Below are positions 2,858 to 39,614 of a DNA stretch of 46,439 nt, in pieces (the first letter of the stretch is position 1; every line of letters begins with the position of its first letter). Position numbers and translations under genes: made by a program. The stretch is from Roseobacter sp. (lineage in GTDB: Bacteria > Pseudomonadota > Alphaproteobacteria > Rhodobacterales > Rhodobacteraceae). The stretch lies in assembly GCA_011050655.1 (NCBI GenBank), contig DRFG01000277.1:1-46439 (forward strand), read 5' to 3'. Below the pieces are notes generated by a model, which saw only the letters and a program-made list of their open reading frames with translations, was not told the origin of the DNA and did not search any database.

Positions 2858-4096
2858 TCATGCGTGTAATGCCCCGGGAAGGGTCGGGGAGCGCTGAGAT
2901 ACCGGTGTCGGCCCGCGGTGCCCCCTAAAGAATTGGACTATTTCTTGATATCTAATTCGCGTGTCTTCTAACGTTTGATAATATCTGAACAGCTCCTTCA
3001 GTGGTGCCGAAAAATCTTTGTGCGCGGCGAGAACCGCAACCAATGCCCCAAGGCTGATCCGATCTTCGATCACAAAATATCCCCCGAGTGAATAAAATAG
3101 GAACGGCGTGAGTGCGGTCAGGAAGTTGTTTAACGCCTTGATAAAAAACTTAAGGCGAAAGATGCGGCGTCGGACCTTCTCAAGTTCTCGGAAACTAGCG
3201 CTCGTTGGTTCAAGAAGCGCACCGTCGCCGGTTTCATTTCGCAACTGATCATTCAAGAGCCGCCCCATATGACGTACCTGCTGGATACGCTCACGTGATA
3301 ATGCATTCACCCGACGCTGGAGCTTTGGCAGCAATACCAGTTGGATCGGTAGCACCGTCAGCGCGGCAGCACCCAAAATGGGATCTTGAATGAACATGAA
3401 TAGCAAAATTGTCATGAGCGTGCCGCCCTGCAAAATAGGCAACGTCAATACATCTGCTGCGAACCCTCCGACAGGTTCTACCTCTTGCGCTAGAATAGGT
3501 ACGATCTCGCTTTGGCCCCTTAGATTTAAATCTGCACGCCATTGACGATAGACTGACAGACGGAACCGTCGCAAAAACCGTTCAGCAACGTAGCCTTTGA
3601 AAACATTCAGAGAGTATTTATTCAATCCGTACAACATGATGGTCAAAAGATAGAAGCCGCATAACAACAAAAGAAACGTCACCTGATCCACGCTCCAATC
3701 AAAGACAACGATAGGAAACCGGTCGGAGTGCAGGGCATTATTTACAATTTGCTTAGGCAGCTCCAATGTCAGATAGAGGATTGGCAGAGCCAGTAAACTA
3801 AGGCCGACCATCTGCACTTGTTGCCTGCGCGAATGGCGCAATATTGAGCTGAACAGGCTGTTATCCAGACCTCTGATCGCTTCGGTGCAAGGTTGTTTTA
3901 AGCGTGTTCGCCGCCAAAATTTCAACGACCCGCTGATAACGCCATACGTGCCGACGACAATCAAGAACGACGGCGCCAGCACCAAGATAACATGGATAAA
4001 AGGGTGCAGCCAATCGGGTGTGGCGTCACTATAGTCATAGCCGAACATCGCCGCGACGTCGTGTACAAACAAGTGATATCTATCCAGCAGCGCCAT
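2858..4096 (-). CDS. stand-alone ABC-transporter transmembrane domain, no ATPase
   Basis: A 412-residue membrane protein. About 80 N-terminal residues include one extra helix (33-55). The rest resembles the type I ABC exporter membrane domain of large alphaproteobacterial ABC proteins, for example LYLTLELPKQIVNNAL, FLFYSLGGYFVI and LGALVAVLAAHKDFSAPLKE. It stops soon after the last helix at RYQEIVQFF. No Walker A, signature motif or Walker B is present, and no nucleotide-binding domain is encoded nearby. It is either a truncated exporter kept as an open frame or a membrane protein that pairs with an ATPase elsewhere. It ends 33 bases before the cytochrome c start and begins 10 bases after the cupredoxin stop. 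Confidence 0.7.
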   Translation of the reverse strand: MALLDRYHLFVHDVAAMFGYDYSDATPDWLHPFIHVILVLAPSFLIVVGTYGVISGSLKFWRRTRLKQPCTEAIRGLDNSLFSSILRHSRRQQVQMVGLSLLALPILYLTLELPKQIVNNALHSDRFPIVVFDWSVDQVTFLLLLCGFYLLTIMLYGLNKYSLNVFKGYVAERFLRRFRLSVYRQWRADLNLRGQSEIVPILAQEVEPVGGFAADVLTLPILQGGTLMTILLFMFIQDPILGAAALTVLPIQLVLLPKLQRRVNALSRERIQQVRHMGRLLNDQLRNETGDGALLEPTSASFRELEKVRRRIFRLKFFIKALNNFLTALTPFLFYSLGGYFVIEDRISLGALVAVLAAHKDFSAPLKELFRYYQTLEDTRIRYQEIVQFFRGHRGPTPVSQRSPTLPGALHA

Positions 4097-4105
4097 TGTC
4101 CTTAA

Positions 4106-4630
4106 TCACCTCGCGGTGCTACCAGAAACGTGATCATGCACGATTATGACCCCCCACATTCCTGCTTCGCGGTGGCCATCAATCAGACAGACAAATTCCA
4201 GATTGGTCTCCACCGAAAACTTCCAGACCAATTCGGCGGTTTCACCGGCCGGGATGGCAACAGCATTTTGGTCGACATGAGACATGTCGGGATGACTGCG
4301 CATCCATTGTTCGTGCTGCTGAATTTCTTCGAATGATCCAAGGTAAAATTCGTGGTACATTGCGCCTGTGTTCGTGATGACGAACCGTACGGTGGACCCT
4401 TTTTTTATATAGATGACGTCAGGGACGAACAGCATATACCCTGCGGCGGTTTCCCTAATAGATATCTCTATTTCCTGAGTAACCAGTGAGTCATCGCTGG
4501 GACTCCCTATGAAGTTATGGCTCGATTTCTCGGATACGCCTGCATGCGGACTTACGCCTTCACCTGTATTTGCGAGCGCGGGCAAGAGCCCGATCAACAC
4601 GTACACAATAATGATCAATAGTGGTTTCAC
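4106..4630 (-). CDS. exported cupredoxin (type 1 copper protein)
   Basis: The C-terminal half is a plastocyanin/azurin-like domain. Counting from a possible ATG at 4684, the ligands are His111 (MYHEFYLG), Cys166 and His171 (VCLIDGHREAGM) and Met176: the full H-C-H-M set. I prefer the GTG at 4630 (175 residues) because it gives a normal signal peptide ending LLPALA and has GAGG 11 bases upstream; from 4684 the signal peptide would carry an acidic 18-residue extension and no spaced ribosome-binding site. Likely a periplasmic copper or electron carrier. It resembles the neighbouring cupredoxin at 4973-5479, so the pair may come from a duplication. Confidence 0.8.
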   Translation of the reverse strand: MKPLLIIIVYVLIGLLPALANTGEGVSPHAGVSEKSSHNFIGSPSDDSLVTQEIEISIRETAAGYMLFVPDVIYIKKGSTVRFVITNTGAMYHEFYLGSFEEIQQHEQWMRSHPDMSHVDQNAVAIPAGETAELVWKFSVETNLEFVCLIDGHREAGMWGVIIVHDHVSGSTAR

Positions 4631-4706
4631 GGCCAGCGTTGCCTCGCGGTAAATTTCGTTCCCGGTTTCGGAGAGGTAACCCATCCTGTCGGGTTTTTGG
4701 TCGATA

Positions 4707-4736
4707 GCGAGGCTGCAACCAAAATTGCAGCCTCGC
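4707..4736 (-). terminator. 12-bp hairpin after the CusF-like region
   Basis: Perfect stem GCGAGGCTGCAA (4707-4718) / TTGCAGCCTCGC (4725-4736) with a six-base loop. It starts 8 bases beyond the stop of the CusF-like frame and not directly behind the amber codon of the cupredoxin. That placement suggests that the transcription unit was built to include the CusF region. It lacks a T-run, so it may be an attenuator or RNA-stability element. Confidence 0.6.
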
Positions 4737-4744
4737 CTGGTGGC

Positions 4745-4972
4745 TTACTTCACATCTGTCAAAGTGAGTTCGCCGTCGACATCGCTAGCGATGAATTCAA
4801 TGGTGTCGCCTTCCGACATTTTGTCTATCATCGCTTCGTCGGCTTTAAACACCATGGTCATCCCCGGCATGTCTAGGTTGACGACCAGACCGTGGCTGAT
4901 AGTTACCTCACCTGTTTTTTTGTCGATTTTCTTGACTTTCCCGTGGGTGAATATCTCGGCTTCCGTAGTGAG
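4745..4972 (-). pseudogene. CusF-like copper-binding domain, in frame after an amber codon
   Basis: Reading on in the same frame past the TAG that ends the cupredoxin gives 75 residues forming a complete CusF-type OB-fold: KVKKIDKKTGEVTI, then HGLVVNLDMPGMTMVF, then SEGDTIEF and a TAA at 4745. CusF binds Cu(I) by one His, two Met and a Trp; here His and the MTM pair are kept and the Trp position is Met, as in many relatives. There is no ATG, GTG or TTG in this frame before the domain, so it can be made only by readthrough of TAG (which is followed by C, a leaky context) or not at all. Cupredoxin-CusF fusions exist in related bacteria from recall, so this is probably the second half of one gene. 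Confidence 0.75.
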
Positions 4973-5479
4973 CTACTTACCTACTGACACCTTGCGGTGC
5001 ATGCCGGATTCATAGTGGCCCGGGATCAAACATGCGGCTTCATATGCGCCATCATTCGAGAAGGTCCAGACGACTTCAGCCGAAGCACCGGCATCAAGAA
5101 TCATACGGTTTGGGTCGGCATGCTTCATATCCATTCCGGCCATTTCCATCATTTCTTCTTTATGCTCTGCATTACGTTCCACTGTATCCAGAACGAATTC
5201 ATGCTCAAGTTCACCTTTATTGGTAATCTTAAAGCGGATTGTTTCACCCTTTTTAAAGTTCAGATCCTCGCTCTCGATCAGCATTTGGCCTTCGTCGTTT
5301 TCAAGCAAAGTCACGTCAATTGTCCGGTCGACCTTAGAAGCATCGCCGGGCATACCGACCATCATTGCCGCATGTTCGTCCGATTTCATATCGCCATGGC
5401 TGGCTTCATGTTCACCTGCCGCAAACGCTGGGGCGGCCAGAGACATTGTCAGAGCGGTTGTCAAAAGAAAGTTTTTCAT
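4973..5479 (-). CDS. exported cupredoxin, N-terminal half of an interrupted cupredoxin-CusF fusion
   Basis: From the ATG at 5479 it has 168 residues: signal peptide 1-21 ending APAFAA, a His/Met-rich linker (HEASHGDMKSDEHAAMMVG) and a cupredoxin domain. Copper ligands are His93 (ELEHEFVLD), Cys150, His155 and Met160 (ACLIPGHYESGM). This start has AGGA 6 bases upstream and removes a poor 18-residue extension. The frame ends at TAG (4973-4975) and continues directly into a CusF domain. Likely a periplasmic copper-binding protein in resistance or delivery. Confidence 0.85.
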   Translation of the reverse strand: MKNFLLTTALTMSLAAPAFAAGEHEASHGDMKSDEHAAMMVGMPGDASKVDRTIDVTLLENDEGQMLIESEDLNFKKGETIRFKITNKGELEHEFVLDTVERNAEHKEEMMEMAGMDMKHADPNRMILDAGASAEVVWTFSNDGAYEAACLIPGHYESGMHRKVSVGK

Positions 5480-5545
5480 CAGTTTTTCCTGTAAGTTTGG
5501 TGTGAGGTTCCAAAAGGCGTTCCAGCCTTTCAAACTTGGTTAGAG

Positions 5546-5992
5546 CTAGTCAACAGCAGCGGGACCATTATCAGAGGCAAGGCTTGCAACTTCACCAGTC
5601 CATTCATCTGCCATCTTGCCCGATGGGTTCTTACCCCTATCGGAAACGGTGCAAATGTCCCTCTTAATATTACCGAGGTCTTTTACAACCGTGAACATGC
5701 TTCCCGGTATGACCGGACCGTATGATCCCAAATCCATGTTCAATGGTAGGATATCATCAGCATTAAGCATGAACTTCTTCGCGATGGTTCCAACAGCCGA
5801 CACGCCCGGGGGCATATATTCTGGTTGGAAACTGCGTGTTGTTTGAATGCTTTGCGGCTTGTCGGCCCGGTTACGATTTGCCAACGCGACGTTATGCGCG
5901 GCCTGACACCCGGCCATCAAAGGCAAGGATGAAAAGACGATGGCCATATGGAATGCAGGGTCAAAAGCCCCTGGATCAATAAAGTTTTTCAT
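5546..5992 (-). CDS. hypothetical lipoprotein-like exported protein
   Basis: Not recognised. From the ATG at 5992 it has 148 residues; ATG codons at 6043 and 5947 are also possible. A lipobox LMAGC follows the hydrophobic stretch MAIVFSSLPLMAG, so with the 5947 start it would be a typical outer-membrane lipoprotein of 133 residues. The rest is polar with no repeats or known motif. It lies 66 bases upstream of the cupredoxin-CusF gene on the same strand, so a copper-related role is possible by context only. Confidence 0.45.
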   Translation of the reverse strand: MKNFIDPGAFDPAFHMAIVFSSLPLMAGCQAAHNVALANRNRADKPQSIQTTRSFQPEYMPPGVSAVGTIAKKFMLNADDILPLNMDLGSYGPVIPGSMFTVVKDLGNIKRDICTVSDRGKNPSGKMADEWTGEVASLASDNGPAAVD

Positions 5993-10251: not shown

Positions 10252-10740
10252 CTAGACCTCTTTTGTTTTATACGGAACTGCGGCCCACCAGAACGCGACC
10301 ACTGGAATAACTATCCATTGCAGCAGCGGCGACAGGCCGGCATCCACGATTGGAACGATAGGCATGAGGTCTGAATAAGCCCAAGCTTCACGGATCACAA
10401 TATTCAACCATTCACTGAAAATCGTGTACCCAAGACCGATACTGACCGCAAGTAACTGAACTTGTTGACGCGACTGCGCCATATAAGGCCACCCTTGGCC
10501 CGCAAGCATCAAAGCCAGCATCAATGCGCTCATCGCGATCAGGATATCACCACCGGTGCAGTGGAAAGCAGCGAAGATGATTTCGCCCCACGTGTCTTCT
10601 GCCCAGATCGTATAAAGAGGCATCTGGACAAATTCCCACACCAGATTGGCTGGAATGATAACGACGAAATAACGTCGCAACGCCCCCAGTGAAATCTGGG
10701 CATCGCTGCGCAGCAACATGCTAATTTTCGTAGCGCTCAT
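10252..10740 (-). CDS. conserved multi-pass membrane protein
   Basis: Not assigned to a named family. From the ATG at 10740 it has 162 residues and about four helices, with conserved-looking WEFVQMPLY, FHCTGGD and EWLNIVI. The ATG overlaps the SCO stop by ATGA (10737-10740), which decides the start over an ATG 30 bases upstream. Sandwiched between SCO and ccdA, it is probably part of copper or heme-protein assembly; that is inference from context. His and Cys in HCTGG could bind metal. Confidence 0.7.
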   Translation of the reverse strand: MSATKISMLLRSDAQISLGALRRYFVVIIPANLVWEFVQMPLYTIWAEDTWGEIIFAAFHCTGGDILIAMSALMLALMLAGQGWPYMAQSRQQVQLLAVSIGLGYTIFSEWLNIVIREAWAYSDLMPIVPIVDAGLSPLLQWIVIPVVAFWWAAVPYKTKEV

Positions 10741-11432
10741 CGAAAGGCACCGGTCAGCCAATCCAACCATCCGCGTTCGCGCTGACGGTGCTGCGTGTTG
10801 TTGATCAGCTCACTGACATACAAGATCAAATTGACGTTTTTAAAATTCATTCCGTGAAACTTACCGGCAAAACGTCCCCCGATATCAATCACATGGGTTA
10901 CCGCCGCATGCATCATCATGTCGGCATCTTCGGTCATCGTGAACTCTAGCCCATATTCACGAGCAAGAAGCCGTGTCGCATCTTCAGACTGTTCCGCTGT
11001 GGTCGTCAAAAACACCCAGTTCTCGGTATCAAGCCCATGTATTTCGGGGTAGGCTTGCAAAATTTCAGCCGTATCATTGGCCGGGTCCGTGGTGATCGCA
11101 ATGAACTGCACCACGTCCTTCATGGGGCCTTCGTTTATCGCGCTCTGAATCTGCGCAATCTTTTGTGTATGGAGCGGGCAGACGTCCGTACAACCAGCAT
11201 AGATGAAATATAAGACAACGATCTTGTCGTTAAAATCAGAGAGACGCACCAATTTACCCTGCGCGTCCTGCAACTCAAACGCAGGTGCTGATTGTTCGTC
11301 GATAAGCTGAAAGTAATCCTCCATTTCCATCATACGTGCGTCAAGGTTTTCGCCGGGATGATTAGCAAAAGCGGGTGTAGCAGCAAGTGCGGCAAGAGCC
11401 GCCAAGGCGGAACGCCGTGTCAGGTTAGTCAA
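10737..11432 (-). CDS. SCO1/SenC-type copper chaperone
   Basis: From a TTG at 11432 it has 231 residues; this start has AAGGAC upstream, lies beyond a terminator and yields a clean signal peptide (RRSALAALA...TPAFA). The thioredoxin-like SCO domain carries the copper site: Cys81 and Cys85 (GCTDVCPLH) and the likely His175 (MMHAAVTHVID). SCO proteins deliver copper to the CuA site of cytochrome oxidase or act as periplasmic thiol reductases. An ATG frame open to 11570 overlaps the Met-rich gene and is unlikely. First gene of an operon with the membrane protein and ccdA. Confidence 0.88.
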   Translation of the reverse strand: MTNLTRRSALAALAALAATPAFANHPGENLDARMMEMEDYFQLIDEQSAPAFELQDAQGKLVRLSDFNDKIVVLYFIYAGCTDVCPLHTQKIAQIQSAINEGPMKDVVQFIAITTDPANDTAEILQAYPEIHGLDTENWVFLTTTAEQSEDATRLLAREYGLEFTMTEDADMMMHAAVTHVIDIGGRFAGKFHGMNFKNVNLILYVSELINNTQHRQRERGWLDWLTGAFR

Positions 11433-11446
11433 TATACCGTGTCCTT

Positions 11447-11484
11447 CAAAAAGAGCCCCTGCCGATCTTGTAACCGACAGGGGC
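11447..11484 (-). terminator. intrinsic terminator of the Met-rich protein gene
   Basis: Stem GCCCCTG (11455-11461) / CAGGGGC (11478-11484), extended inward by wobble pairs. Read leftward it is followed by TCTTTTTG (complement of 11447-11454). It lies between the Met-rich gene and the SCO start, so SCO is probably read by leakage or by a further promoter. Confidence 0.75.
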
Positions 11485-11494
11485 AAGGTAGCGA

Positions 11495-11797
11495 TCAGCC
11501 GTCGGATTTTTCCGACTTCATATTTCCGCTTTCCATCATCTTGTTCATGTTCGCCATCATCTTGGTGCATTCTACCATCATCGGCTTCATTTCCGACATC
11601 ATCGACATCATGCCCATCATGTCGCCGTTCATGTTACCGTCTTTCATCATGCTACCATCCATCTTGCCGTCTTTCATGGTGCCGTCACTTTGGGTCATCT
11701 TGCTGTGATCCATCGCGGGCTTTTCTTCGGCATTTACGGCGAAACCCGCAGTCGCGAATGCGGTGGCGAATGCGATTAATCCAAGTGTCTTTTTCAT
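11495..11797 (-). CDS. exported Met-rich copper-binding-like protein
   Basis: A 100-residue protein: signal peptide 1-23 (ending VNA) and a mature part in which over a quarter of the residues are Met, arranged as MKDG, MDGSMM, GDMMGMMSMMSEM and CTKMMANMNKMM. Met-rich motifs bind Cu(I) in the oxidising periplasm, so a copper buffer or donor is likely. It has AGGAGTG before the ATG. Directly upstream of SCO, with a terminator between, as expected if it is made in excess over SCO. Confidence 0.75.
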   Translation of the reverse strand: MKKTLGLIAFATAFATAGFAVNAEEKPAMDHSKMTQSDGTMKDGKMDGSMMKDGNMNGDMMGMMSMMSEMKPMMVECTKMMANMNKMMESGNMKSEKSDG

Positions 11798-11836
11798 CGG
11801 GTCACTCCTTGAGTTGATATACGTGGGTTTGAAAGG

Positions 11837-12184
11837 TTATTCAGTTGATGGGGTGTCAGTCGATTTTCCACACCCTTTGCCTGTGCCACCCTTCATGCAC
11901 AGACCCAGTCCACACATCGCGGCACACGGCGCGAGCGATATGAGGATTGGAGTAAGGCCAACTGCTGTCAGCCACCCCCAATTTAGCGCCAGACCACCCC
12001 CGACAAGGGTCGCAGCACTGGCAAAAATCACGCGCCTTCGTGTCATCCATGTCGGCCAACTAAATCTAGCCGGTGCAGGTATGCTCTCATTCATCACCGA
12101 TCCTAAGATTGTGTGCCGACCATTATCGTTCAAAAACCCACGTGCCGATGCGCCCAAGGTCATCAGATTGCTCACGGCCTTCAT
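11837..12184 (-). CDS. small membrane protein with a Cys/Gly-rich tail
   Basis: A 115-residue protein with two hydrophobic segments and a tail LAPCAAMCGLGLCMKGG then GKGCGKS: four Cys in about 20 residues, a possible metal site. The ATG at 12184 overlaps the upstream thioredoxin stop by ATGA, with GGAAGGG upstream; an internal ATG at 12094 with AGGATCG is an alternative (85 residues). No known family recognised. Last gene of a cytochrome c - CcmG-like - TlpA-like operon. Confidence 0.6.
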   Translation of the reverse strand: MKAVSNLMTLGASARGFLNDNGRHTILGSVMNESIPAPARFSWPTWMTRRRVIFASAATLVGGGLALNWGWLTAVGLTPILISLAPCAAMCGLGLCMKGGTGKGCGKSTDTPSTE

Positions 12185-12693
12185 TCGATGAACCCTTCCA
12201 GAAACGACACCATCTCAGGGTCGTCCCATTCGGCGGGACCTACTAGCCGGCCCAGTTCTTCTCCCTTTGCGTTGATCAGCAAAGTGGTGGGCAGGCCCAC
12301 GGTACGCAGCGCTGTGGCCGACAGCATGGTTTTATCGACATACATGTTCAAATGCTCCACGCCGATCTCGTCATAGAACCGCCGCACAGCTGGGACGCCG
12401 GCGCGATCAATCGACAGGGCTACGACCTCGAATTTATCGCTCCCGAGTTTATCCTCAAGCGCGTCGAGCGTCGGCATCTCTTCGCGGCAAGGCACGCACC
12501 ACGTGGCCCAGATGTTTAGCAACAATACCTTGCCCTGAAACGATTCCATATCCAGCTTAGTGCCGTCTTCTGTAACGAAACGGACGTTGGCGATAGGCTG
12601 GGCGGCATCATGCAGCGCGAACCCTTGCGGGGCAGCCATCGTGGCGGTGGACCAACCCAACAGCAACGCGAACGCCAATTTGATATAATTCAT
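12181..12693 (-). CDS. TlpA-like periplasmic thioredoxin
   Basis: A 170-residue exported protein: signal peptide 1-20 (ending TMA) and a TlpA/ResA-type thioredoxin fold. Active site is Cys66-Val-Pro-Cys69 in NIWATWCVPCREEMP, and the cis-Pro loop is VGLPTTLLI. It would reduce disulfides or Cys copper ligands in the periplasm with electrons from CcdA. Both ends overlap neighbours by ATGA, so it is translationally coupled to the CcmG-like gene and the Cys-rich membrane protein. Confidence 0.88.
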   Translation of the reverse strand: MNYIKLAFALLLGWSTATMAAPQGFALHDAAQPIANVRFVTEDGTKLDMESFQGKVLLLNIWATWCVPCREEMPTLDALEDKLGSDKFEVVALSIDRAGVPAVRRFYDEIGVEHLNMYVDKTMLSATALRTVGLPTTLLINAKGEELGRLVGPAEWDDPEMVSFLEGFIE

Positions 12694-13289
12694 TGTGTCG
12701 CCTCCTTGGCGGTAGAAGATGATTTGAGTTCACGCACCACACGCATGAGCGTGTTTTGCAAGATATCGGCCGTTAACGGCCCGACATGTCGATAGGCGAT
12801 CGTACCGTCGGCAGCGATGACATAGGTTTCAGGCACGCCGTAGACGCCCCATTCGATCCCGGCGCGACCATCACGATCAGCCCCGATACGGGAATAGGGG
12901 TCGCCCAGTTCATCCAGCCATGCCCGTGCCTGTTCTGGCGGGTCCTTATAGTTGATGCCGTATATCGGCACCTCGCCTGTGGCACCCAGTTCGACGAACA
13001 GCGGGTGTTCGGCGCGACACGGAACACACCAAGATGCGAACACATTTACCAGTGATACATGTCCGGCCAGGTCCTGCGTCGACAGTCCCTCGGCCCGCCC
13101 AAGAACGGGAGGCAAGGAAAATTCCGGCACGGGTTTGTTAACCATAGTCGACGGCAATGTTTCGTCACTGTTGAACAGCCCCCAAGCGAAAAGCGCCAGC
13201 AACGCAAAAGCTACTGCGGGGACTATAGCCAGTCTGGTCAACCGAAAACCGGGCTTCCCGCGCCGCTCAGGGGGATCAAGATCCGTCAT
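12690..13289 (-). CDS. DsbE/CcmG-like membrane-anchored thioredoxin
   Basis: A 199-residue protein with one N-terminal transmembrane anchor (20-38) and a periplasmic thioredoxin domain. Active site Cys88-Val-Pro-Cys91 in NVFASWCVPCRAEHP and the CcmG-type YGVPETYVI (150-158) are clear. CcmG reduces apocytochrome c thiols before heme attachment. No other ccm gene is here, so this is probably an extra copy serving the cytochromes or copper proteins of this island. Coupled by ATGA overlaps to the cytochrome c upstream and TlpA-like gene downstream. Confidence 0.87.
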   Translation of the reverse strand: MTDLDPPERRGKPGFRLTRLAIVPAVAFALLALFAWGLFNSDETLPSTMVNKPVPEFSLPPVLGRAEGLSTQDLAGHVSLVNVFASWCVPCRAEHPLFVELGATGEVPIYGINYKDPPEQARAWLDELGDPYSRIGADRDGRAGIEWGVYGVPETYVIAADGTIAYRHVGPLTADILQNTLMRVVRELKSSSTAKEATQ

Positions 13290-13714
13290 TTACGCGCCTC
13301 TTCATCGCTTTGCGTTATCTTTGCTTGGGCTTTGCGGGCACGTTCAGGCCAAGTGCTTTTCATGTAATCCAGTATGGCGATGACTTCGTGGTCCGAAAGA
13401 ATGTCGCCAAAACCGGGCATGTCGCTTTCGTACCCGTCGCCTACGATTGCGGCAGTACCGCGGTTCACTATGTCAACCAGCATCCTGTCAGCGTGGTGCC
13501 AAGTGTGCCCGGATTCGTCATGCGGAGGTGCCGGCAATCTGCCATTCGGCAATCGTATTTTCCAATCGGGCTGGCCTTCCAAGTTGGTACCATGGCAGCT
13601 TGCACAGTTTTCCTGATAAAGCGCCTTGCCCTCGGCCAACTGCACATCCTGTGCCGAAGCCGTTCCAGCTAAACCTGTCAGCGTAAGGCCTAAGACACTT
13701 ATATATCTGATCAT
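13286..13714 (-). CDS. exported c-type cytochrome
   Basis: From the ATG at 13714 (AGGAAACGAA upstream) it has 142 residues with signal peptide 1-21 ending TASA. A longer frame to 13807 lacks a signal-peptide-like beginning. One class I heme domain: CASCH at 37-41 and axial Met99 in SDMPGFG. A His-rich loop (HDESGHTWHH) between them is unusual and could bind metal. First gene of a four-gene ATGA-coupled operon with two thioredoxin-like proteins. Confidence 0.87.
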   Translation of the reverse strand: MIRYISVLGLTLTGLAGTASAQDVQLAEGKALYQENCASCHGTNLEGQPDWKIRLPNGRLPAPPHDESGHTWHHADRMLVDIVNRGTAAIVGDGYESDMPGFGDILSDHEVIAILDYMKSTWPERARKAQAKITQSDEEARK

Positions 13715-13853
13715 TTCGTTTCCTAATTTTGCCAATCTCCGACGCGCAGCGTAACCAGTAAGACCATTCCAAAGCACGAACACTCTTTTGTACAGCCCCG
13801 CATTCACAAGCCTGTCGCCCGTTTAGTTCCGCAATTCGCCTCCGTCAGGAGTA

Positions 13854-13988
13854 CTATTTACTGTCGTCAGAACGTATGTACTTCAACAAGGCAATCACCC
13901 CAAGAACCAACACTGTGATGGTCAACAACCAGAACAATCCCATGCCAACCATCATTCCGCCACCCATCGTTCCATTTTCCAAAAACAT
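13854..13988 (-). CDS. 44-residue membrane protein
   Basis: A short frame with a clear layout: MFLENGTMGGGMMVGMG, one hydrophobic helix (LFWLLTITVLVLGVIALL) and a charged tail KYIRSDDSK. The ATG at 13988 has AGGATG 9 bases upstream; an ATG at 13997 gives three more residues (KCM) but sits on the ribosome-binding sequence. Small proteins of this shape occur beside copper genes in this clade, from recall. Third gene after the multicopper oxidase and DUF411 genes. Function unknown. Confidence 0.65.
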   Translation of the reverse strand: MFLENGTMGGGMMVGMGLFWLLTITVLVLGVIALLKYIRSDDSK

Positions 13989-14020
13989 ACACTTCATCCT
14001 TTATCCAACCTTAAGATAGT

Positions 14021-14042
14021 CCCGGCACGAGGTCGTGCCGGG
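14021..14042 (-). terminator. hairpin after the DUF411 gene
   Basis: Self-complementary arms CCCGGCACGA (14021-14030) and TCGTGCCGGG (14033-14042), giving about nine pairs and a small loop. It starts 12 bases beyond the DUF411 stop and 33 bases before the small membrane protein. No T-run, so perhaps an attenuator or RNA stabiliser. Confidence 0.6.
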
Positions 14043-14054
14043 AAGTTTATCGTG

Positions 14055-14510
14055 TCATTCCACAGCGTAAACTGTCGGCTCTGCCCCAGCTTTAACCGCA
14101 AGAATCTCGAACGGTTTCTGCTTTGCACCGCCCATACCTGGCGAACCCATTGGCATACCTGGCAACGTGATCCCGGCAATGTCTGGCTTTTCGGTCAGCA
14201 TCTTATTAACCACATCGATCGGCACGTGCCCGCTGACCACATAGTCGCCTAGAAAAGCAGTATGACATCCCTGAAACTTTTCCGAAATGCCCGCTTCTTC
14301 ACTGATCTGCGTCAAATCATGCGTCGGCTTGACCTCAACCGTGTACCCATTTTCGCGAAGGTAGTCTGCATAGTTCTCGCAGCACCCGCACTGTGGGTTT
14401 TTGTAAAGAGTGACTGTTTCGGCACTTACCGGGGCAGCATTCAGACTGATCGCAAGAACAGCAGCGGCACCGGCAGCAGCAAGGCTGGTAAATCCTAATA
14501 TCTTCTTCAT
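14055..14510 (-). CDS. DUF411 periplasmic metal-binding protein
   Basis: A 151-residue exported protein with signal peptide 1-30 (ending PVSA). The DUF411 features are present: TLYKNPQCGCCENYADYL with Cys41, Cys43 and Cys44, then GCHTAFLGDYVVSGHVP (81-97), and a Met/Gly segment LPGMPMGSPGMG. DUF411 proteins are regular members of copper-resistance clusters and are thought to bind metal in the periplasm. It follows the multicopper oxidase by 37 bases. Confidence 0.9.
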   Translation of the reverse strand: MKKILGFTSLAAAGAAAVLAISLNAAPVSAETVTLYKNPQCGCCENYADYLRENGYTVEVKPTHDLTQISEEAGISEKFQGCHTAFLGDYVVSGHVPIDVVNKMLTEKPDIAGITLPGMPMGSPGMGGAKQKPFEILAVKAGAEPTVYAVE

Positions 14511-14547
14511 TTTTTCATCCTTTTATCTATCGTGGGTTAATCAAGCT

Positions 14548-15978
14548 TCAAACGGCAGAGGAAACACGGACAACGCCCATCATTCCCGCCGCCTGATGTT
14601 CAAGAATATGGCAATGGAACATCCAATCGCCGGGGTTGTCGGCTACAAAGGCAATGTCGACCCGTTCTTCTGGGGCCATCATGACGGTATCTTGCCACTC
14701 ATTGTATTTTGTCGGCTGGCCATTTCGGGCAATCACGCGAAAGCTGTGCCCGTGAAAGTGGATTGGATGCGCCCATCTGGTTTTGTTTTCCATCTCGAAT
14801 ATGTGAGATGTGCCTAAAGGCAGCGTCAGCAGTGGTTCCTTGATCGGTGCCTTCTCCGCTTTACCGTTGATGAACCACATGTTGCCTTCGCGCATTTGCT
14901 CCATCATGTTGCCCATGCCCGCGCCCATCATCATTTGCCCCATCATACCGCCGTTGAATACAATCTGGTGACGCGTCGCGGCGGCTAGATCAGGTTCTGC
15001 TAACGGGTTTTGGGCAAGCTCTATCGGCCAATCAGGAACTGTGCTGCGCAAGGGCTCACTTCCGTAGGTGAGATCAACCAACCGGTACTCTAGGTCTTTA
15101 TAGAAAACATCGGCGACCGAAACGGTATCACCCGGTTTTCCCGTCATATCGATTACAAGATCGACGCGCATGGCGGGCCCCAAGACAATAACGCCGCTTT
15201 CCGGGGCGTGTGGCGTTACAGGTTGCCCATCCATAGCTATTACCACTGGCGACAGATCACCAAAATTCAGGCCGAATATACGTGCGTTCGCCGCATTAAC
15301 CAGACGCAGGCGGATTCTCTCTCCGGCGCGGATCTCTATACTTTCGGGAACCTTGCCGTTGATGGTCACGGCATTCCCCACCCGTCCGCCATGGACCGCA
15401 TCGTGACGACTATCAAAGTCGTCGGAAATCTGGCCATTTTTGGTCATGCGCCAATCGTCCAGCATCCAGGTCACGTCGCGATCTACCCGGATCGGGTCAA
15501 CTTCGTCGACAATCAACGGTCCGTATAGTCCACGCCCCACCTGTTCAGAGCTACGGTGATGCGGATGGTACCAGAAAGTTCCTGCATCAAGCACGTCGAA
15601 CTCGTAGAGGAACTCCTGGCCCGCAGATATCGGGTCTTGCGTCAAGAAAGGCACGCCATCCATCGCATTGGGTGTGCGTATCCCATGCCAATGAACTGTG
15701 GTGGGATCATCCAGTCCGTTTTGTGCGAGCACGCGCAGGCGATCACCTTGCCGTACGCGAATTTCGGCACCGGGGACCGTCCCATTATAGTTCCAGACCT
15801 GTGTCGGGCTATAGGGCACAGGGCGCAACATGGCGGTGCCTTTAGCCGCACGTAGGACGAAAGGGTCGGGCGTCGTGGCTGCCACAGCCAATCGCCCAGG
15901 CGATAGCAAGGCCAATCCACCCACGGCAGCGCTGGCACCCAGCACGCGCCGGCGTGTAAATCGTTGTTCAAATTTCAT
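14548..15978 (-). CDS. multicopper oxidase
   Basis: A 476-residue three-cupredoxin-domain oxidase with a TAT signal (TRRRVLGASAAVGG). All four copper-binding blocks are seen: TVHWHGI (94-100), WYHPHH (137-141), HPIHFHGHSF near 410 and HCHILEHQAAGM (455-466) with the T1 Cys, His and axial Met. A Met-rich loop MMGQMMMGAGMGNMMEQM in domain 3 resembles the Cu(I)-oxidation insert of CueO/PcoA-type enzymes. It should oxidise Cu(I) to Cu(II) in the periplasm with O2 as acceptor. First gene of the operon with DUF411 and the 44-residue protein. Confidence 0.92.
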   Translation of the reverse strand: MKFEQRFTRRRVLGASAAVGGLALLSPGRLAVAATTPDPFVLRAAKGTAMLRPVPYSPTQVWNYNGTVPGAEIRVRQGDRLRVLAQNGLDDPTTVHWHGIRTPNAMDGVPFLTQDPISAGQEFLYEFDVLDAGTFWYHPHHRSSEQVGRGLYGPLIVDEVDPIRVDRDVTWMLDDWRMTKNGQISDDFDSRHDAVHGGRVGNAVTINGKVPESIEIRAGERIRLRLVNAANARIFGLNFGDLSPVVIAMDGQPVTPHAPESGVIVLGPAMRVDLVIDMTGKPGDTVSVADVFYKDLEYRLVDLTYGSEPLRSTVPDWPIELAQNPLAEPDLAAATRHQIVFNGGMMGQMMMGAGMGNMMEQMREGNMWFINGKAEKAPIKEPLLTLPLGTSHIFEMENKTRWAHPIHFHGHSFRVIARNGQPTKYNEWQDTVMMAPEERVDIAFVADNPGDWMFHCHILEHQAAGMMGVVRVSSAV

Positions 15979-25836: not shown

Positions 25837-27771
25837 TCAGTAAAGTCCGTCAATCTCAAGCGGCAGCTTCCTGACTTTTTCCTGCTTCAAGATGCTCCGG
25901 GGTTGAACTGCGGTTTCGGCGCTTTGGGCACGGCGGTAGCGCGTTTCGGCAGCTTTTTCCAGATCGGCACGGGTCAGCATGATCGTTGGGCGCAAAAAGA
26001 CAAACAGCGTACGTTTGTTGCGGCTGTCGCTGCGGCTTTTGAAAAGATGACCAACAACTGGAACGTCCCCCAGTAACGGTACTTTTTGATTACTTTGCAG
26101 CCGGTCATCGGTGATAAGGCCGCCAAGAACCACGGTACCGCCGTTTTCGGCCAGAACCGTGGTATTGATGACGCGCCGGTTGGTCACAAGGTCGGCTGCT
26201 CCCGTAACGGCCTGATTGGTAAGAGATGACACTTCCTGTTCGATCTCAAGCTGCACGACTCCACCAGCAGTTATGCGTGGCTTAACAACCATGGTGATAC
26301 CGACGTCTTCGCGTTTGATCACTTCGGTTACGTTCCCACCATCTGTTGTTACACGCCCCGTCCGGAAGGGTACATTTTGGCCAACGACGATCGTGGCGGA
26401 TTGGTTATCCATGGTCGTCACAGAAGGGGTCGAGAGTAGATTAGCGCTTGTTGACGTGTTTAGGGCCTGAATTAGTGCGCCGAAATTATCTGATGCCAGC
26501 CCGACGGAGAGGCCCGTTGAAAGTGCAGCAGCATTGCTTTGGCCCAACGCGACCAGAATGTTCTGGAGAGCGCCACCCCCATTGCCAAAAGACGTAGCGG
26601 CAATGCCCCCGGTTTGTGAATTTTCGCCGATGCCAAGCTGCACACCCAACCGTTCAGCGATGTCGCCAGATACTTCCACTATTGCTGCTTCGATCATCAC
26701 CTGGGGTCGCCGTACATCCAGTGCCTTGATCAACTGCGACACTTCGGAAAGCTGTCGTTGCGTGCCGCGCACAATTACCGAATTCGTCTCGATCGAGGCC
26801 TGTACAGACACAGGTGAGATTGGGGCGGCTTCGGGCCCAACTGCAAAAATTTTCGTATCTGGGTTGGCCGGGTCTTCGCCCACGCTGGCGGCAACCGGAT
26901 TTGTTAAATCTGTTGAACCTGTCAGGGTGTTTCGAACCAGATCGGCGACAATGGACGCTTCACCAAATTGGAGCCGATAGATTGAGGTGCTTACAGTCTC
27001 GCTTTGTGCGACCCGCGGTGATGTATCCATGGCTCGCGCCAAGCTTCTGATTTGCGATATGTCACGCTGGGTGCCGCGCACCAGCAGCACATTCGAACTG
27101 GCATCAACCGACAGTCTGGCCCCTGTACCAGCCGCCCCAAGCACTTCGGAAATTGCGGTCGCTACAGTGCCGGCTTCGGCGTAGGTGAAACGTATAACCT
27201 CTGCGTCCATTTCAGCCTCACCATCAAAAGTGGTAGCAATGGCCACGATGCGATCTACGTTCGCCAGCGTGTCGGTGATAACGATGGCGTTCGGGTCTTC
27301 AATCGCTTCGATGTAACCAGCCTCGTCGATCAACGGCCGCAAAACCCGCACAGCTTCGGCGGATGGCAAACGATTCAACCGCAACAAGCGGGTCACAACG
27401 TCCTGACTACCGGGGATGTCGAGCTTTTTAGGGCTGCCTTTGGTCCGTGCGTCAAGTTCGGGAACGATCTGCCAGACTGAACCTGTTTCAACGGCTGCAA
27501 ACCCACGAACCCGCAGAATTGACTGGAACAGGGCCCAGACCCCTTCGCTATCAAGCGGCTGTTTTGAAACAACGGTCACTTCGCCGGTCAAGTTCGGATC
27601 TAGAACAAGGGTGCGTCCGGTGATGTCTGATACCTGTTCAGCCAGCAGGCTGATTTCAGCCCCGCGCAGATTGATCACAAACGTCTCTTGCGCCAGTGCC
27701 ATTTGGGGGCGCCCCAAGCCGATTGCACCGATGACGAGAAGCACAAGCAGGGAAGGTAGACGGTTACTCAT
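25837..27771 (-). CDS. gspD: GspD, type II secretion secretin
   Basis: A 644-residue outer-membrane secretin: signal peptide 1-27 (ending MALA), N0 (FVINLRGAEISLLAEQVSDI), N1-N3 repeats (for example VIVRGTQRQLSEVSQLIKALD), and the secretin core with VVGQNVPFRTG, VKPRITAGGVVQLEIEQEVS and VPLLGDVPVVGHLFKS. It forms the outer-membrane channel. A stretch GGIAATSFGNGGGALQNI in the core matches the gate region. Last gene of the leftward G-H-I-C-D operon, with a 4-base ATGA overlap to gspC. No pilotin gene gspS is near. Confidence 0.95.
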   Translation of the reverse strand: MSNRLPSLLVLLVIGAIGLGRPQMALAQETFVINLRGAEISLLAEQVSDITGRTLVLDPNLTGEVTVVSKQPLDSEGVWALFQSILRVRGFAAVETGSVWQIVPELDARTKGSPKKLDIPGSQDVVTRLLRLNRLPSAEAVRVLRPLIDEAGYIEAIEDPNAIVITDTLANVDRIVAIATTFDGEAEMDAEVIRFTYAEAGTVATAISEVLGAAGTGARLSVDASSNVLLVRGTQRDISQIRSLARAMDTSPRVAQSETVSTSIYRLQFGEASIVADLVRNTLTGSTDLTNPVAASVGEDPANPDTKIFAVGPEAAPISPVSVQASIETNSVIVRGTQRQLSEVSQLIKALDVRRPQVMIEAAIVEVSGDIAERLGVQLGIGENSQTGGIAATSFGNGGGALQNILVALGQSNAAALSTGLSVGLASDNFGALIQALNTSTSANLLSTPSVTTMDNQSATIVVGQNVPFRTGRVTTDGGNVTEVIKREDVGITMVVKPRITAGGVVQLEIEQEVSSLTNQAVTGAADLVTNRRVINTTVLAENGGTVVLGGLITDDRLQSNQKVPLLGDVPVVGHLFKSRSDSRNKRTLFVFLRPTIMLTRADLEKAAETRYRRAQSAETAVQPRSILKQEKVRKLPLEIDGLY

Positions 27772-33287: not shown

Positions 33288-34505
33288 ATGGCAGCGTTTT
33301 CCTATAAGGCGGTTGATAAATCGGGGGCCGGTAGCAGCGGTCTGATCGAAGCATCAAGCGCAAGTGCTGCGCGGCAAGAATTGCGCGCACGCGCACTGTT
33401 GCCGATTTCCGTCGAACCGACGCGCAAGGGGCTTGCTGGCGCGTCGGTATTTGCCAGCGGGCGCAGCAAAAGCATCGGAGGCAGAGCGTTGACGGTGGTT
33501 ACGCGGCAGCTGGCGACGTTGATCGGGGCAGGGGTCCGCATTGAAGATGCGCTAAAGACCGTTGCGGATCAGGCCAGCAATGCAAAAGTTGCCGCATTGA
33601 TGTTGACGTTGCGGGCCGATGTGTTGGACGGGCAGGGGCTTGCTCCTGCACTTGATGCACATCCCCATATCTTTGGGGCGTTCTACCGCGCATCGGTCAA
33701 AGCCGGAGAAACGTCGGGCCGGTTGGGCGGCGTAATGGATCATCTGGCCGATTTTGTTGAGACCCGGTCAAAGAACCGCCAGACAGTGCAGCTTGCCTTG
33801 CTATATCCGGCGATCTTGGCGCTGGTGTCTTTGGGGGTGATCGTCGCGCTGCTGGTCTATGTGGTGCCCGACATCGTCAAAGTTTTTACCTCTCGCGGTG
33901 CCGAACTGCCGTTTTTGACCCGCAGCTTGATCGCGGTCAGTGACTTTGTCGCGAATTACGGTCTGATTGTGCTGGGTACCGTCCTTGGATTGATCGCGTT
34001 AGGGGCATGGCTGCTTAAACGCCCAAGTGCACGCATGCGGTTTGATCAATGGACAGCGCAAGCTTGGCCTATGCGACATTTCGTTTTGAAATCCAACGCG
34101 ACGCAGTTTGCCGGTACGTTGGCAACTTTAACGGTTAGCCGTGTGCCGCTTTCAGAAGCGTTGGAAGCCGCAGGAGACACAATTGGCAACCGCTATATCC
34201 GAGCCAAGGCGCAGGCCGTGGGCGCACGGGTTCGCGAAGGCACGGCGCTGTCAAAGGCGATGCATCAAGCGGCGGTTTTTCCGCCCTTGCTGGTCGCGAT
34301 GGTGGCCAGCGGCGAAGCGGGTGGCACCTTGGGCGCGAGCCTGACGCGTGCGGCTGCGGATCAGGCGCGCGATCTTGATGCCTTGGTGTCAGCCCTAGTG
34401 GCTTTGGTCGAACCCGCTGTGCTTTTATTGATGGGGGGGGTGGTGATGCTGTTGGTGCTGTCCATTCTGCTGCCCATCGTAAATCTGAACAATCTGGTGA
34501 TTTGA
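33288..34505 (+). CDS. gspF: GspF, type II secretion platform protein
   Basis: A 405-residue polytopic protein with two repeated GspF/PilC domains (for example LATLIGAGVRIEDALKTVAD and LATLTVSRVPLSEALEAAGD) each followed by hydrophobic helices, and the GEAGGTLGASL motif. It forms the inner-membrane base that couples GspE to the pseudopilus. It ends 14 bases from the stop of the convergent gspN. Confidence 0.95.
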   Translation: MAAFSYKAVDKSGAGSSGLIEASSASAARQELRARALLPISVEPTRKGLAGASVFASGRSKSIGGRALTVVTRQLATLIGAGVRIEDALKTVADQASNAKVAALMLTLRADVLDGQGLAPALDAHPHIFGAFYRASVKAGETSGRLGGVMDHLADFVETRSKNRQTVQLALLYPAILALVSLGVIVALLVYVVPDIVKVFTSRGAELPFLTRSLIAVSDFVANYGLIVLGTVLGLIALGAWLLKRPSARMRFDQWTAQAWPMRHFVLKSNATQFAGTLATLTVSRVPLSEALEAAGDTIGNRYIRAKAQAVGARVREGTALSKAMHQAAVFPPLLVAMVASGEAGGTLGASLTRAAADQARDLDALVSALVALVEPAVLLLMGGVVMLLVLSILLPIVNLNNLVI

Positions 34506-36312: not shown

Positions 36313-36839
36313 CCCAGCAGGCGCACCGCGACACAGAGGCGGGCCTGACGCTTGTCGAGGTACTTGTCGCGCTTGCATTGTTTTCCCTGATCGGTCTGTC
36401 AGGCTTTACGATGCTTGATAACATTCTGCGGGTGCAGTCCGGCACGCAAGGGCGCTTGGAACGTTTGGGCCAAATTGATCGCGCGCTAGTGGTTTTCAGC
36501 CGGGATTTGCAGGAATCGGATTCTGGCAGCGTGAGGCAGGATGAGAACGGTGTAACTATGAATAGGGCGGGCACAGGTCTGTTATCCTATCAGGCACGGT
36601 CAAATGTTTTCCTGCGCAGCCTGTCACGCAGAAATTTTGCCCAGCAGATGATCGACGGGGTAAACTCCATCCGGCTGAGGTCGCTGGATTCTGCGGGCAC
36701 GTGGCATGAAAGCTGGCCGATCGAACAGACACAGTCGCTAGGTCTGATACCCACGCTAAAGGCCGTCGAACTGCAACTGGATCTACGCGAAGGCACGATT
36801 AGCCGACTTGTCGATGTGCCGGCAGGGGCGGCGGAATGA
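36309..36839 (+). CDS. gspJ: GspJ, minor pseudopilin
   Basis: A 176-residue pseudopilin: leader MTQQAHRDTEAG cut before LTLVEVLVALALFSLIGLSG with Glu5, and the GspJ-type DRALVVFSRDLQ and NSIRLRSLDSAGTWHESWP. It starts within the stop of the lipoprotein gene (ATGA) and overlaps gspK by ATGA. With I and K it caps the pseudopilus. Confidence 0.92.
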   Translation: MTQQAHRDTEAGLTLVEVLVALALFSLIGLSGFTMLDNILRVQSGTQGRLERLGQIDRALVVFSRDLQESDSGSVRQDENGVTMNRAGTGLLSYQARSNVFLRSLSRRNFAQQMIDGVNSIRLRSLDSAGTWHESWPIEQTQSLGLIPTLKAVELQLDLREGTISRLVDVPAGAAE

Positions 36840-37693
36840 AGCGCGACTGCGACGGAGGTGTCGTCTTAATAAACGTGTTGGTTATCCTGTCGATCGCGTC
36901 CATCGTGGTGTTCTTGATGCTGACCTCGCAAGACGTGTCGTTGCGGCGTGCGCAGTCGATGGCGGCGGCAACTGCCGCAGACGCATTGGCCAGAGGGGCC
37001 GAGGCGAGTGCAGTGACTGCGCTACGGCGTGACATGATAAACGCCCCCGATACAGATAACTACGCAGAGCCTTGGGCGCAGGTCGCCCAGCAAGAGGCCG
37101 GTCTTTCAACGGGACGATTTTCTGTCACAATCCGAGATGCGCAGGCCAAGCTGAACCTCACACGCCTTGCCGGTGGGGCGCAGGTCGAAGTTGAAGCGCT
37201 GTTGCGCGTGTTGGCCGAGCTTGAGATCAGCCGTGCAGATGGCGCACGGATCGCGACTGAAATTGCCGGGCGTCCGGGTCTAAAAAACTTGTCAGATCTG
37301 CGCAGCATTTCACCCGAAACAGTCAATGCGCTTTCGCCGTATGTGGATTTTTTGCCCGCAACGGCGACGATTAATCTGAATACTGCCGCGCCGTTGCTTT
37401 TGCGCGCGGTGCTCAATAACGGATCTGCTGCCCTGCGGCTTGAAAGCATGCGGAAAAGTGCCGGGCTTTTAACCCCCCAAGACCTTGACCGCGTAGGTGC
37501 TGTGCAGCCCGCCCTGGCCGGGTTCACCTCGCAGAATTTCGACATCGATATCTTTGCCGAAGTCGATGATATCACCGTTAACCTACACAGCAGAATAGCG
37601 CGTCTAGAAAGCTTTGCCGGCCGAAGTGTCGTTGTGACACGCCGGGCCTACGGCGTGCCGCTCAATACGGTACCGGCAATACCGCAGATGTAG
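36836..37693 (+). CDS. gspK: GspK, minor pseudopilin
   Basis: A 285-residue protein: leader MKRDCDGG, then VVLINVLVILSIASIVVFL, which lacks Glu5, the hallmark of GspK. The large head has the helical insert (LNLTRLAGGAQVEVEALLRV, GLKNLSDLRSIS) and INLNTAAPLLLRAVL of the family. It forms the distal tip of the pseudopilus. A strong hairpin follows the stop. Confidence 0.93.
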   Translation: MKRDCDGGVVLINVLVILSIASIVVFLMLTSQDVSLRRAQSMAAATAADALARGAEASAVTALRRDMINAPDTDNYAEPWAQVAQQEAGLSTGRFSVTIRDAQAKLNLTRLAGGAQVEVEALLRVLAELEISRADGARIATEIAGRPGLKNLSDLRSISPETVNALSPYVDFLPATATINLNTAAPLLLRAVLNNGSAALRLESMRKSAGLLTPQDLDRVGAVQPALAGFTSQNFDIDIFAEVDDITVNLHSRIARLESFAGRSVVVTRRAYGVPLNTVPAIPQM

Positions 37694-37760: not shown

Positions 37761-37991
37761 TTAAACGTTAAACGGATCGATATTCGGGTTTACGACCAAC
37801 CCTGCAGAAGCAGGATCAGCCAAAGCTGTACCATTGGCGTTGGTTTGGAACGCTTTCACGAAAGCCGCACCCAAGGTGTTGATCCCCGAAAGTCCGCTGC
37901 TGCCCCCACAAGCAGCCACAAACAATAGCAAGGACGTTCCTGCGATCAGCTTACCTTTACGCGTAAACATCTGTTTTATGGTGAGTGTCAT
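37761..37991 (-). CDS. small lipoprotein after the DUF4331 gene
   Basis: A 76-residue protein from the ATG at 37991, which has GGAGG 6 bases upstream; the frame open to 38003 starts inside that region. Signal peptide with lipobox LFVAACGGSSG. The short mature part (GINTLGAAFVKAFQTNANG, then NPNIDPFNV) has no known motif. It starts 12 bases past the DUF4331 stop, so they form one operon between gspK and the prepilin peptidase. Possible partner or anchor of the DUF4331 protein. Confidence 0.7.
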   Translation of the reverse strand: MTLTIKQMFTRKGKLIAGTSLLLFVAACGGSSGLSGINTLGAAFVKAFQTNANGTALADPASAGLVVNPNIDPFNV

Positions 37992-38003
37992 ACGATCCTC
38001 CAC

Positions 38004-39614
38004 TTAGTTTGGCGAGCCAGCGAGCGGCGTATTCAGGTAGGGGAACGTCGCGCGAAGATCTGTTGGTTTGATTGGAGCACCATCTGTGAATGCGGCTGTG
38101 CCGACGGGCGCATCTGCTGGGGCACAAAGCCCAAGATTGATGTTGTCAACGGCTTTCGGATCACCGCTCAGCTCTTGGCCCAGTGGTACTGGGTGACACA
38201 AACGGCCCATTACAACGCGCAAAGCTATGTCTACAGTATCGTCCGCCGGGCGACGTCCGTTCGGAAATCCGGCAAGATCTTCTGCAACCAATCCAAAGAC
38301 ATTCTGCTTAGCAAGAGGGGTTGCTGCAACGCCGGTATTGAGACGCATCATTTCAGACCCCGTTACCTTTGCCTGCTGGTTGAAGCCTGGGAAACCGGTC
38401 AAGAACGCTGCGACAAGGTCGTTACGTGGGAAGTTGTTTGGCGCAAGCTCTGCGGGTAGTCCAGCCACACCGCCGAACAGCAGCTCGACAAGTTCGGGCA
38501 GTGTTGGGTTGGTAACGTAAGGCGCAAGTGCACCATCTTGGGTCGGTTCGGCGGCGTTAAACAGATCTTTGTCAGGCAAGCCGATGACAACCTCGTTCAC
38601 CAACGGTGCAGACAAACGTGCAACCTGCACATAGGCACCGCCGTTGACATCAGTCCCTTCATAGGTGGGGCTCGGATCTAGCAGACGAGCCTGAGGCAGG
38701 CTTGCCGTAGTCCAAGCACCGATCACACCATTACCAGCCCCTGTCAGACAGGAAATCGGCACTTCGATGGCCAAGGATGTGACGTTGAATTTACCAATTA
38801 GATCATCGTTGGCACGGTCTTGGGTAATACCGCCCGAGAACGGCGATGATGCATTATACTGAGGGTAAGCTGGATTGTCGGCACCTTGAATTGGTACCAA
38901 GTTTACGAGGTCAAAGATCTCACCAAGGTTAACAGCAAACGCTTCTGCGCGTTGGCCGACAAAAACGCGACCTGGCGCTGCACAATCAGGGATCGTTGTC
39001 TCGCTGACAAAACCGTCAGCGTAGGTCGCATAATCAGCGATGGTCTTCTTACCAATGTTGTCGATTGGTTTGTTGAACGTCGTGCCACCACCACTTTTAT
39101 TTGTTAGCAGCGCACTCGCGGCATAGCCCGAACGGCGGTCGCCATTGATCTTACGTACTGTGTAGCTTTCAAATTCATTTTGGGCTGCGGTATTACCTGC
39201 ACCAATTGTACCGGCCTGACGCAGAGGGATCGCAACATCCACACCACCGACCTTCAGCGCTATGCCTTTGCCTGAATTAGCGAGAGTATTTTTAAATTGG
39301 AATTGAAACGTGATGTCTTCCATCGCATCGCCGTCATTGTCTACGTGAATTTCGTAAACAGCGTCGGAATCCATCGTGAAATAGTTGGGTCCACCGTAAG
39401 GGGCCTGCAACGGCTGATAGTTTGCAATGAAAGTTACTGTATCTTCTTTGCCTGTTTCATAGCTCCGAAACATATAAAAATCTGTGGCATCCACTTTTGG
39501 CATTGCTGTGATGCCGGGTGCTTCGCGGTGCGAAGACGCCCACGCTGTCGTGGCGCACACCGTGGCCAAAACGGCCCCCGCGCTGACAAGCGCCTTTTTC
39601 TTATTATTTAACAT
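38004..39614 (-). CDS. exported DUF4331 protein, candidate secretion substrate
   Basis: A 536-residue protein with signal peptide 1-26 (ending TTAWA) and the DUF4331 start SSHREAPGITAMPKVDATDF, then EIHVDNDGDAMEDITFQFQF and other family segments through the length. The function of the family is not established; the Asp-rich segments could bind calcium. Mature protein is large, soluble and follows a Sec signal, as type II substrates do. GGAGGAAG lies before the ATG. It sits inside the secretion locus, in an operon with a small lipoprotein. Secretion is inferred from context. Confidence 0.85.
   Translation of the reverse strand: MLNNKKKALVSAGAVLATVCATTAWASSHREAPGITAMPKVDATDFYMFRSYETGKEDTVTFIANYQPLQAPYGGPNYFTMDSDAVYEIHVDNDGDAMEDITFQFQFKNTLANSGKGIALKVGGVDVAIPLRQAGTIGAGNTAAQNEFESYTVRKINGDRRSGYAASALLTNKSGGGTTFNKPIDNIGKKTIADYATYADGFVSETTIPDCAAPGRVFVGQRAEAFAVNLGEIFDLVNLVPIQGADNPAYPQYNASSPFSGGITQDRANDDLIGKFNVTSLAIEVPISCLTGAGNGVIGAWTTASLPQARLLDPSPTYEGTDVNGGAYVQVARLSAPLVNEVVIGLPDKDLFNAAEPTQDGALAPYVTNPTLPELVELLFGGVAGLPAELAPNNFPRNDLVAAFLTGFPGFNQQAKVTGSEMMRLNTGVAATPLAKQNVFGLVAEDLAGFPNGRRPADDTVDIALRVVMGRLCHPVPLGQELSGDPKAVDNINLGLCAPADAPVGTAAFTDGAPIKPTDLRATFPYLNTPLAGSPN

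Follow-up and report, generated by a model that had tools for sequence, protein, structure and literature searches.

Locus Organization and Domain Content

The stretch of DNA analyzed here (the window; 46,439 nucleotides) constitutes contig C277 of a draft genome (G000) of 4.1 Mb in 315 contigs. RepA/RepB/RepC-type genes are located at 18.8-22.3 kb, and the window represents a piece of a RepABC plasmid from a Sulfitobacter-like marine roseobacter. The host is taken to be Sulfitobacter in the GTDB sense because matches to Sulfitobacter records occur among the sequences of its genus-mates. On the minus strand, an ATG at 5479-5477 opens a frame encoding a CopI-like cupredoxin of 168 amino acids (4976-5479), with an N-terminal signal peptide recognized by eye. 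This frame reaches a TAG in the inter-domain linker (4973-4975) and continues in phase through a CusF domain of 75 codons (4748-4972) up to a TAA (4745-4747), the junction reading GTG TCA GTA GGT AAG TAG CTC ACT ACG GAA. The cupredoxin matches Pfam Copper-bind (PF00127, E = 1.6e-7) and falls below the cut-offs of the NCBIfam CopI models (NF047895, 80.1 against 200 bits; NF051440, 107.9 against 280 bits), while the part after the TAG lies well above the gathering cut-off of CusF_Ec (PF11604, E = 2e-21, 76 bits against 27). Direct reading and these two Pfam matches bear out the initial annotation, which placed a cupredoxin and a CusF in one frame with a single amber codon between them.

The annotation was equally right in stating that no ATG, GTG or TTG lies ahead of CusF, the first of these codons past the TAG being codon 35 of the 75, and the domain has no signal peptide of its own. 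The locus has the two domains, the single frame and the single signal peptide of a fusion, except that the frame is broken at 4975-4973, and it has neither the start codon nor the signal peptide of a separate CusF gene. A hairpin of 14 pairs without a U-run, which had been placed after CusF rather than after the TAG (at 4707-4736), does follow CusF at 4737-4706 on the minus strand (-26.2 kcal/mol). It is kept in the second plasmid described below (-26.0 kcal/mol). An antisense open reading frame over CusF (4725-5015, plus strand) was considered as a gene and rejected, given that a stop breaks it in the second plasmid; its omega of 0.19 is uninformative alone because its third positions are shared with those of the CusF frame.

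The CusF_Ec domain is common to this protein and to Escherichia coli CusF/SilF, although the latter is a stand-alone protein of Cus/Sil efflux and the match reaches only 19.9 bits. In the alignment the histidine and both methionine copper ligands coincide, whereas a methionine occupies the position of the tryptophan ligand. This replacement of the tryptophan is also seen in the fused relatives. The CusF after the TAG is the sole PF11604 match in each of the two genomes that carry this stop.

Further along the minus strand, the operon continues with a second cupredoxin gene (4106-4684), an ABC transporter transmembrane protein (2858-4096) and a cytochrome c gene (2384-2824). The same order past CusF is found on plasmid pSMR3-1 of Roseovarius mucosus, where the operon comprises TolC, a copper oxidase, the copper-binding protein, a second cupredoxin, an ABC membrane protein and cytochrome c. 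The copper-binding protein of that plasmid (WP_037275420.1) has the same two domains and is 69% identical over its whole length. Nonetheless, the R. mucosus fusion is uninterrupted and its oxidase and TolC are intact, whereas in the window a TAG separates the domains, the oxidase is reduced to a dead remnant with stops and TolC was not found beside the operon. The remnant (5525-5845, minus strand) is a broken C-terminal end of 107 residues, corresponding to residues 346-452 of 452 in the R. mucosus protein, and serves below as a neutral yardstick. Considering the state of the oxidase and the missing TolC, the oxidase-side end of the operon is degenerating.

Fused and Split Relatives

Apart from the four loci with the TAG, which are two copies each of two genomes, 64 related loci were compared. 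Uninterrupted cupredoxin-CusF fusions account for 50 of them and separate CusF genes with their own ATG and a signal peptide by eye for the other 14; the 64 loci do not stand for 64 independent genomes, as some genomes derive from two collections (L002/L011; L003 and L035 look alike). Eight further loci comprise five fusions, one stub (L159), one contig edge (L111) and one separate gene (L112). The stub (G748:C9) is a truncated CusF with unrelated DNA joined just before the domain.

The linker was compared in 50 sequences, with L001 and L011 removed as duplicates and loci lacking a pattern-recognized fused cupredoxin left out, among them L088 and L089, which are fused by eye. A linker of 19 residues occurs in 30 sequences including the two with TAG, and in the 28 uninterrupted ones the TAG column holds glutamine (22), lysine (5) or asparagine (1). 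In the alignment with full-length fusions that the initial annotation suggested, glutamine is the commonest residue at this place. Taking into account the shared linker length and the prevalence of glutamine in this column, the interrupted gene appears to derive from the fused type. The annotation also held that close relatives in which CusF stands as a gene of its own would count against its interpretation. Such relatives do exist, but they possess an ATG and a signal peptide, and the window retains a linker of fused-type length. In the split Rhodobacterales loci L080, L095 and L098 the same two products are encoded by adjacent genes, in the same frame in L095 and L098, with the start codon and by-eye signal peptide that the window CusF lacks.

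Among 62 genomes of the genus, 47 CusF places were detected in 40, and a 75-codon frame was present in G000 and G051 only, the others being 43 open frames of 242-323 and two single cases, one at the edge of a contig (G049, L111) and one forming a separate gene (G036, L112). In the remaining 22 genomes nothing was matched by this CusF query at 1e-8. Matches occurred in 37 of 394 genomes of a family sample and in 54 of 390 of an order sample. In both samples the open frames other than that of the window had at least 92 residues, and the short frames fetched from them proved to be separate genes, each starting at an ATG, apart from the stub L159. Plasmid records with a DNA match numbered 139 (40 listed), all in the 60-80% identity band, and viral contigs yielded no further TAG case, either by exact pattern or among relatives.

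A Second Plasmid With the Same Stop Codon

A TAG at the identical codon was found in the metagenome-assembled genome of Roseobacter sp. NP10 (PCCY01000030.1; L002, identical to L011 on G051:C27). The two sequences are collinear in five blocks of 83-89% identity, with 86% identity over 43,802 aligned bases, and their CusF parts are 85% identical. A recent nonsense mutation confined to the window, one of three readings initially offered, does not agree with the presence of the same TAG on the plasmid of a second species. As expected of a readthrough gene, the stop is shared at the same place by at least two species, here two only, and the downstream part is without a separate start as far as standard start codons are concerned. 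The nearest differences between the plasmids lie 4 bases before and 9 bases after the TAG, and several synonymous places differ in its vicinity, indicating that the site has not been copied recently as a long stretch.

The plasmids also offer a view of how common such extensions are. Of 57 listed plasmid open reading frames, 53 with an aligned counterpart, eight run on in frame for at least 50 codons past their stop on both plasmids alike. Omega is below 0.2 in five of the extensions, four of which enter a downstream frame with its own start (770-1411, 2858-4096, 33288-34505 and 37761-38003), so that the TAG at 4973 is alone in having a low-omega extension which a downstream gene does not explain. 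The remaining extensions, which are not downstream genes, have omega values of 0.97, 1.43 and 6.8.

Selection on CusF Past the Stop Codon

Comparison of CusF between the two plasmids gave dS of 0.40 and dN of 0.075, from 15.5 synonymous and 12.5 nonsynonymous differences. Omega amounts to 0.19 by NG86 and 0.21-0.22 by maximum likelihood (95% profile interval 0.10-0.45), and a value of 1 is rejected (P = 3.4e-4); for the cupredoxin part omega is 0.09-0.11. Simulated neutral evolution would have produced 18.9 +/- 2.2 residue changes, against the 11 observed (P = 3.5e-4). The absence of new stops in CusF is uninformative, having a neutral probability of 0.74. The six codons directly past the TAG contain three synonymous changes and no replacement, and only 3 of the 41 columns conserved in fusions differ between the two TAG copies. 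Past the TAG these copies score 76.0 and 73.7 bits in Pfam, a little less than four fused copies (77.9-81.8 bits).

The oxidase remnant, which lies some 550 bases upstream on these two plasmids, behaves as a neutral sequence, with omega of 0.98 by NG86 and 1.29 by maximum likelihood (against 1, P = 0.49). Its differences are distributed evenly over codon positions 1, 2 and 3 (16, 17 and 15), whereas those of CusF concentrate at the third (5, 6 and 17). Fisher tests separate CusF from the remnant by synonymous and nonsynonymous counts (P = 0.006), by codon position (P = 0.016) and by rate at nonsynonymous sites (P = 0.015), while the codon-position test shows no significant difference between CusF and the cupredoxin (P = 0.32). 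Purifying selection past the stop, beyond that of neutral controls, is therefore observed between the two TAG copies.

This selection is nonetheless weaker than in uninterrupted fusions. Among 136 fused pairs of similar divergence, drawn from 46 unique sequences of 50, the median CusF omega is 0.054 and only 5 pairs reach the 0.214 of the TAG pair. When fused-type constraint is mixed with neutrality, the best fit has a neutral share of 15% (5-45%), both 0 and 100% being rejected. A domain expressed at a low level would show such a lowered constraint, and so would one lost late. Synonymous divergence is higher in live genes (0.40-0.54) than in the dead oxidase remnant (0.17), an anomaly which counts against a readthrough reading.

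Decoding of the UAG Codon

It is known that UAG can be read by near-cognate glutamine, tyrosine or lysine tRNAs, and that C after a stop codon constitutes a weak termination context. The initial annotation drew on the latter in describing the TAG as leaky; the context is there and lends slight support, but the conserved gene at 10252-10770 on the same plasmid also ends in TAG-C. No stimulating RNA structure was detected at the TAG, four folds being without significance (z from -0.29 to -0.97). In one study, 0-frame readthrough has been demonstrated for E. coli nudL, with more of it in the absence of RF3, and the fourth base is said to affect termination (PMC5373646).

A tRNA with a CTA anticodon was absent from the 37 tRNAs listed for G000 and the 40 listed for G051, lists that are incomplete, as neither contains a tRNA-Tyr. 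A CTA-loop pattern had one match in G000, which is not tRNA-like by eye, and none in G051. Release factor RF1 scored over the cut-off in G051 and was matched on two contig ends in G000; in the latter draft the RF1 gene is split across the ends of C137 and C134. Three further genes (2384-2824, 10252-10770 and 36836-37693) likewise have TAG as their stop in both plasmids. With RF1 present and TAG in regular use as a terminator, UAG has in all likelihood not been reassigned, and any passage through it would be partial.

Interpretation of the Interrupted Gene

Given that CusF is under selection past the TAG, readthrough yielding two forms is the best supported of the three readings put forward at the outset. 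We consider it somewhat probable, on comparative grounds, that a conserved amber codon is read through at a low level, giving mainly the short cupredoxin and a little cupredoxin-CusF. The gene would go back to a cupredoxin-CusF fusion, uninterrupted and exported, of the kind found in roseobacter copper operons. A linker codon of this fusion may have changed to TAG once, in the common ancestor of the two related plasmids. The majority of ribosomes would stop there and release an exported cupredoxin, while in a minority a near-cognate tRNA would decode UAG and give a cupredoxin-CusF that the same signal peptide would export. The linker would presumably tolerate whichever residue was inserted, and the small amount of CusF may have conferred enough benefit for its sequence to be maintained by selection, under a constraint weaker than in uninterrupted fusions. 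Readthrough would account both for the missing start and for the kept sequence, considering that proteins of the CusF family are exported (judged by eye) and that this is the only PF11604 copy. Having neither a standard start nor a signal peptide, CusF would reach the periplasm only as part of the read-through product.

The main rival, ranked behind readthrough and given roughly one chance in a few, is that CusF is dead or dying. It would have been under constraint over most of the divergence, and the stop would have arisen late, separately on each plasmid or through the exchange of a very short stretch, the constraint that is left dating from before it. The relaxation relative to fused pairs and the fitted neutral fraction agree with such a loss, as do the remnant state of the neighboring oxidase gene and the stub at a rearrangement in another genome, and CusF seems dispensable in view of the 22 genus genomes without a match. 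Independent origin would however require the same stop at the same codon twice, when in CusF alone a single step would turn 17 of the 75 codons into a stop; the differences flanking the TAG leave little room for exchange, and neutrality of CusF since the plasmids split is rejected. If this explanation were nevertheless correct, the locus would show the shedding of a fused domain.

Alternatively, ribosomes halting at the TAG could reinitiate at a non-standard codon directly past it and so make CusF a separate polypeptide. Split CusF genes are common in relatives, an adjacent same-frame gene pair exists on the same plasmid (38004-39614 and 37761-38003) and an AGG lies a few bases ahead of the TAG in both plasmids. 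We regard a restart as improbable even so, as standard starts are lacking before codon 35, the candidate rare starts differ between the plasmids (ATA/GTA and ACG/ACT) and the product would be without the signal peptide seen by eye in split genes. The gaps in the tRNA lists leave some room for efficient decoding by a dedicated amber suppressor tRNA, the second reading of the initial annotation, or through a reassigned UAG. The anticodon survey did not bear this out and, together with the RF1 matches and the other genes ending in TAG, makes it highly improbable. An error of sequencing or assembly at 4973-4975, which the annotation had named as a possible source of the stop, might be suspected in so fragmented a draft, but a second assembly, named independently, shows this TAG too, and the probability of an error is thereby reduced to almost nothing. 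Overall, the observation made at the outset is confirmed and the interpretation attached to it is supported in part.

To our knowledge, bacterial readthrough selected for a cellular gene, outside of selenocysteine and pyrrolysine, is poorly documented. Jalajakumari in 1989 reportedly described an amber bypass as needed in the CS3 pili genes of E. coli (cited in PMC1914089 and PMC6681793). That case likewise involves an in-frame amber, although not in a periplasmic copper protein. A screen of prokaryotic genomes in 2007 reported almost no new readthrough candidates (PMC1914089). Its conserved interrupted reading frames rest on the same type of evidence as that used here, namely an identical stop shared at one place by two species, with dN/dS before and after it. 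The single TAG candidate of unknown kind given there had an extension that was short and little conserved, and it was classed as a false positive, whereas here a complete known domain follows the stop. No description of an amber-interrupted cupredoxin-CusF gene was found in the openly accessible literature searched. The locus combines a complete domain of known fold past the stop, uninterrupted and split relatives as natural controls and a culturable host group, and for these reasons the idea that leaky amber codons set isoform ratios in bacteria can be put to a direct test. More speculatively, the readthrough preferred here may set dose, with much free periplasmic cupredoxin and little cupredoxin-CusF, in a ratio open to release-factor supply or copper stress. 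If true, a dose-setting amber would constitute a third evolutionary answer within one bacterial family, beside full fusion and full splitting.

Other Observations on the Plasmid

Additional features have been recorded in the window, all on the minus strand. A DUF4331 gene (38004-39614) shares its frame with the small lipoprotein-like gene that comes after it (37761-38003), which has its own ribosome site and start, with a GTG directly after the TAA and an ATG four codons on, and shows omega of 0.15; it has no match in Pfam. A second copper-linked block (10737-15978) contains SCO1/SenC, DsbE/TlpA-type and cytochrome c-type genes together with a multicopper oxidase. The type II secretion secretin GspD is also plasmid-borne (25837-27771, 471 bits).
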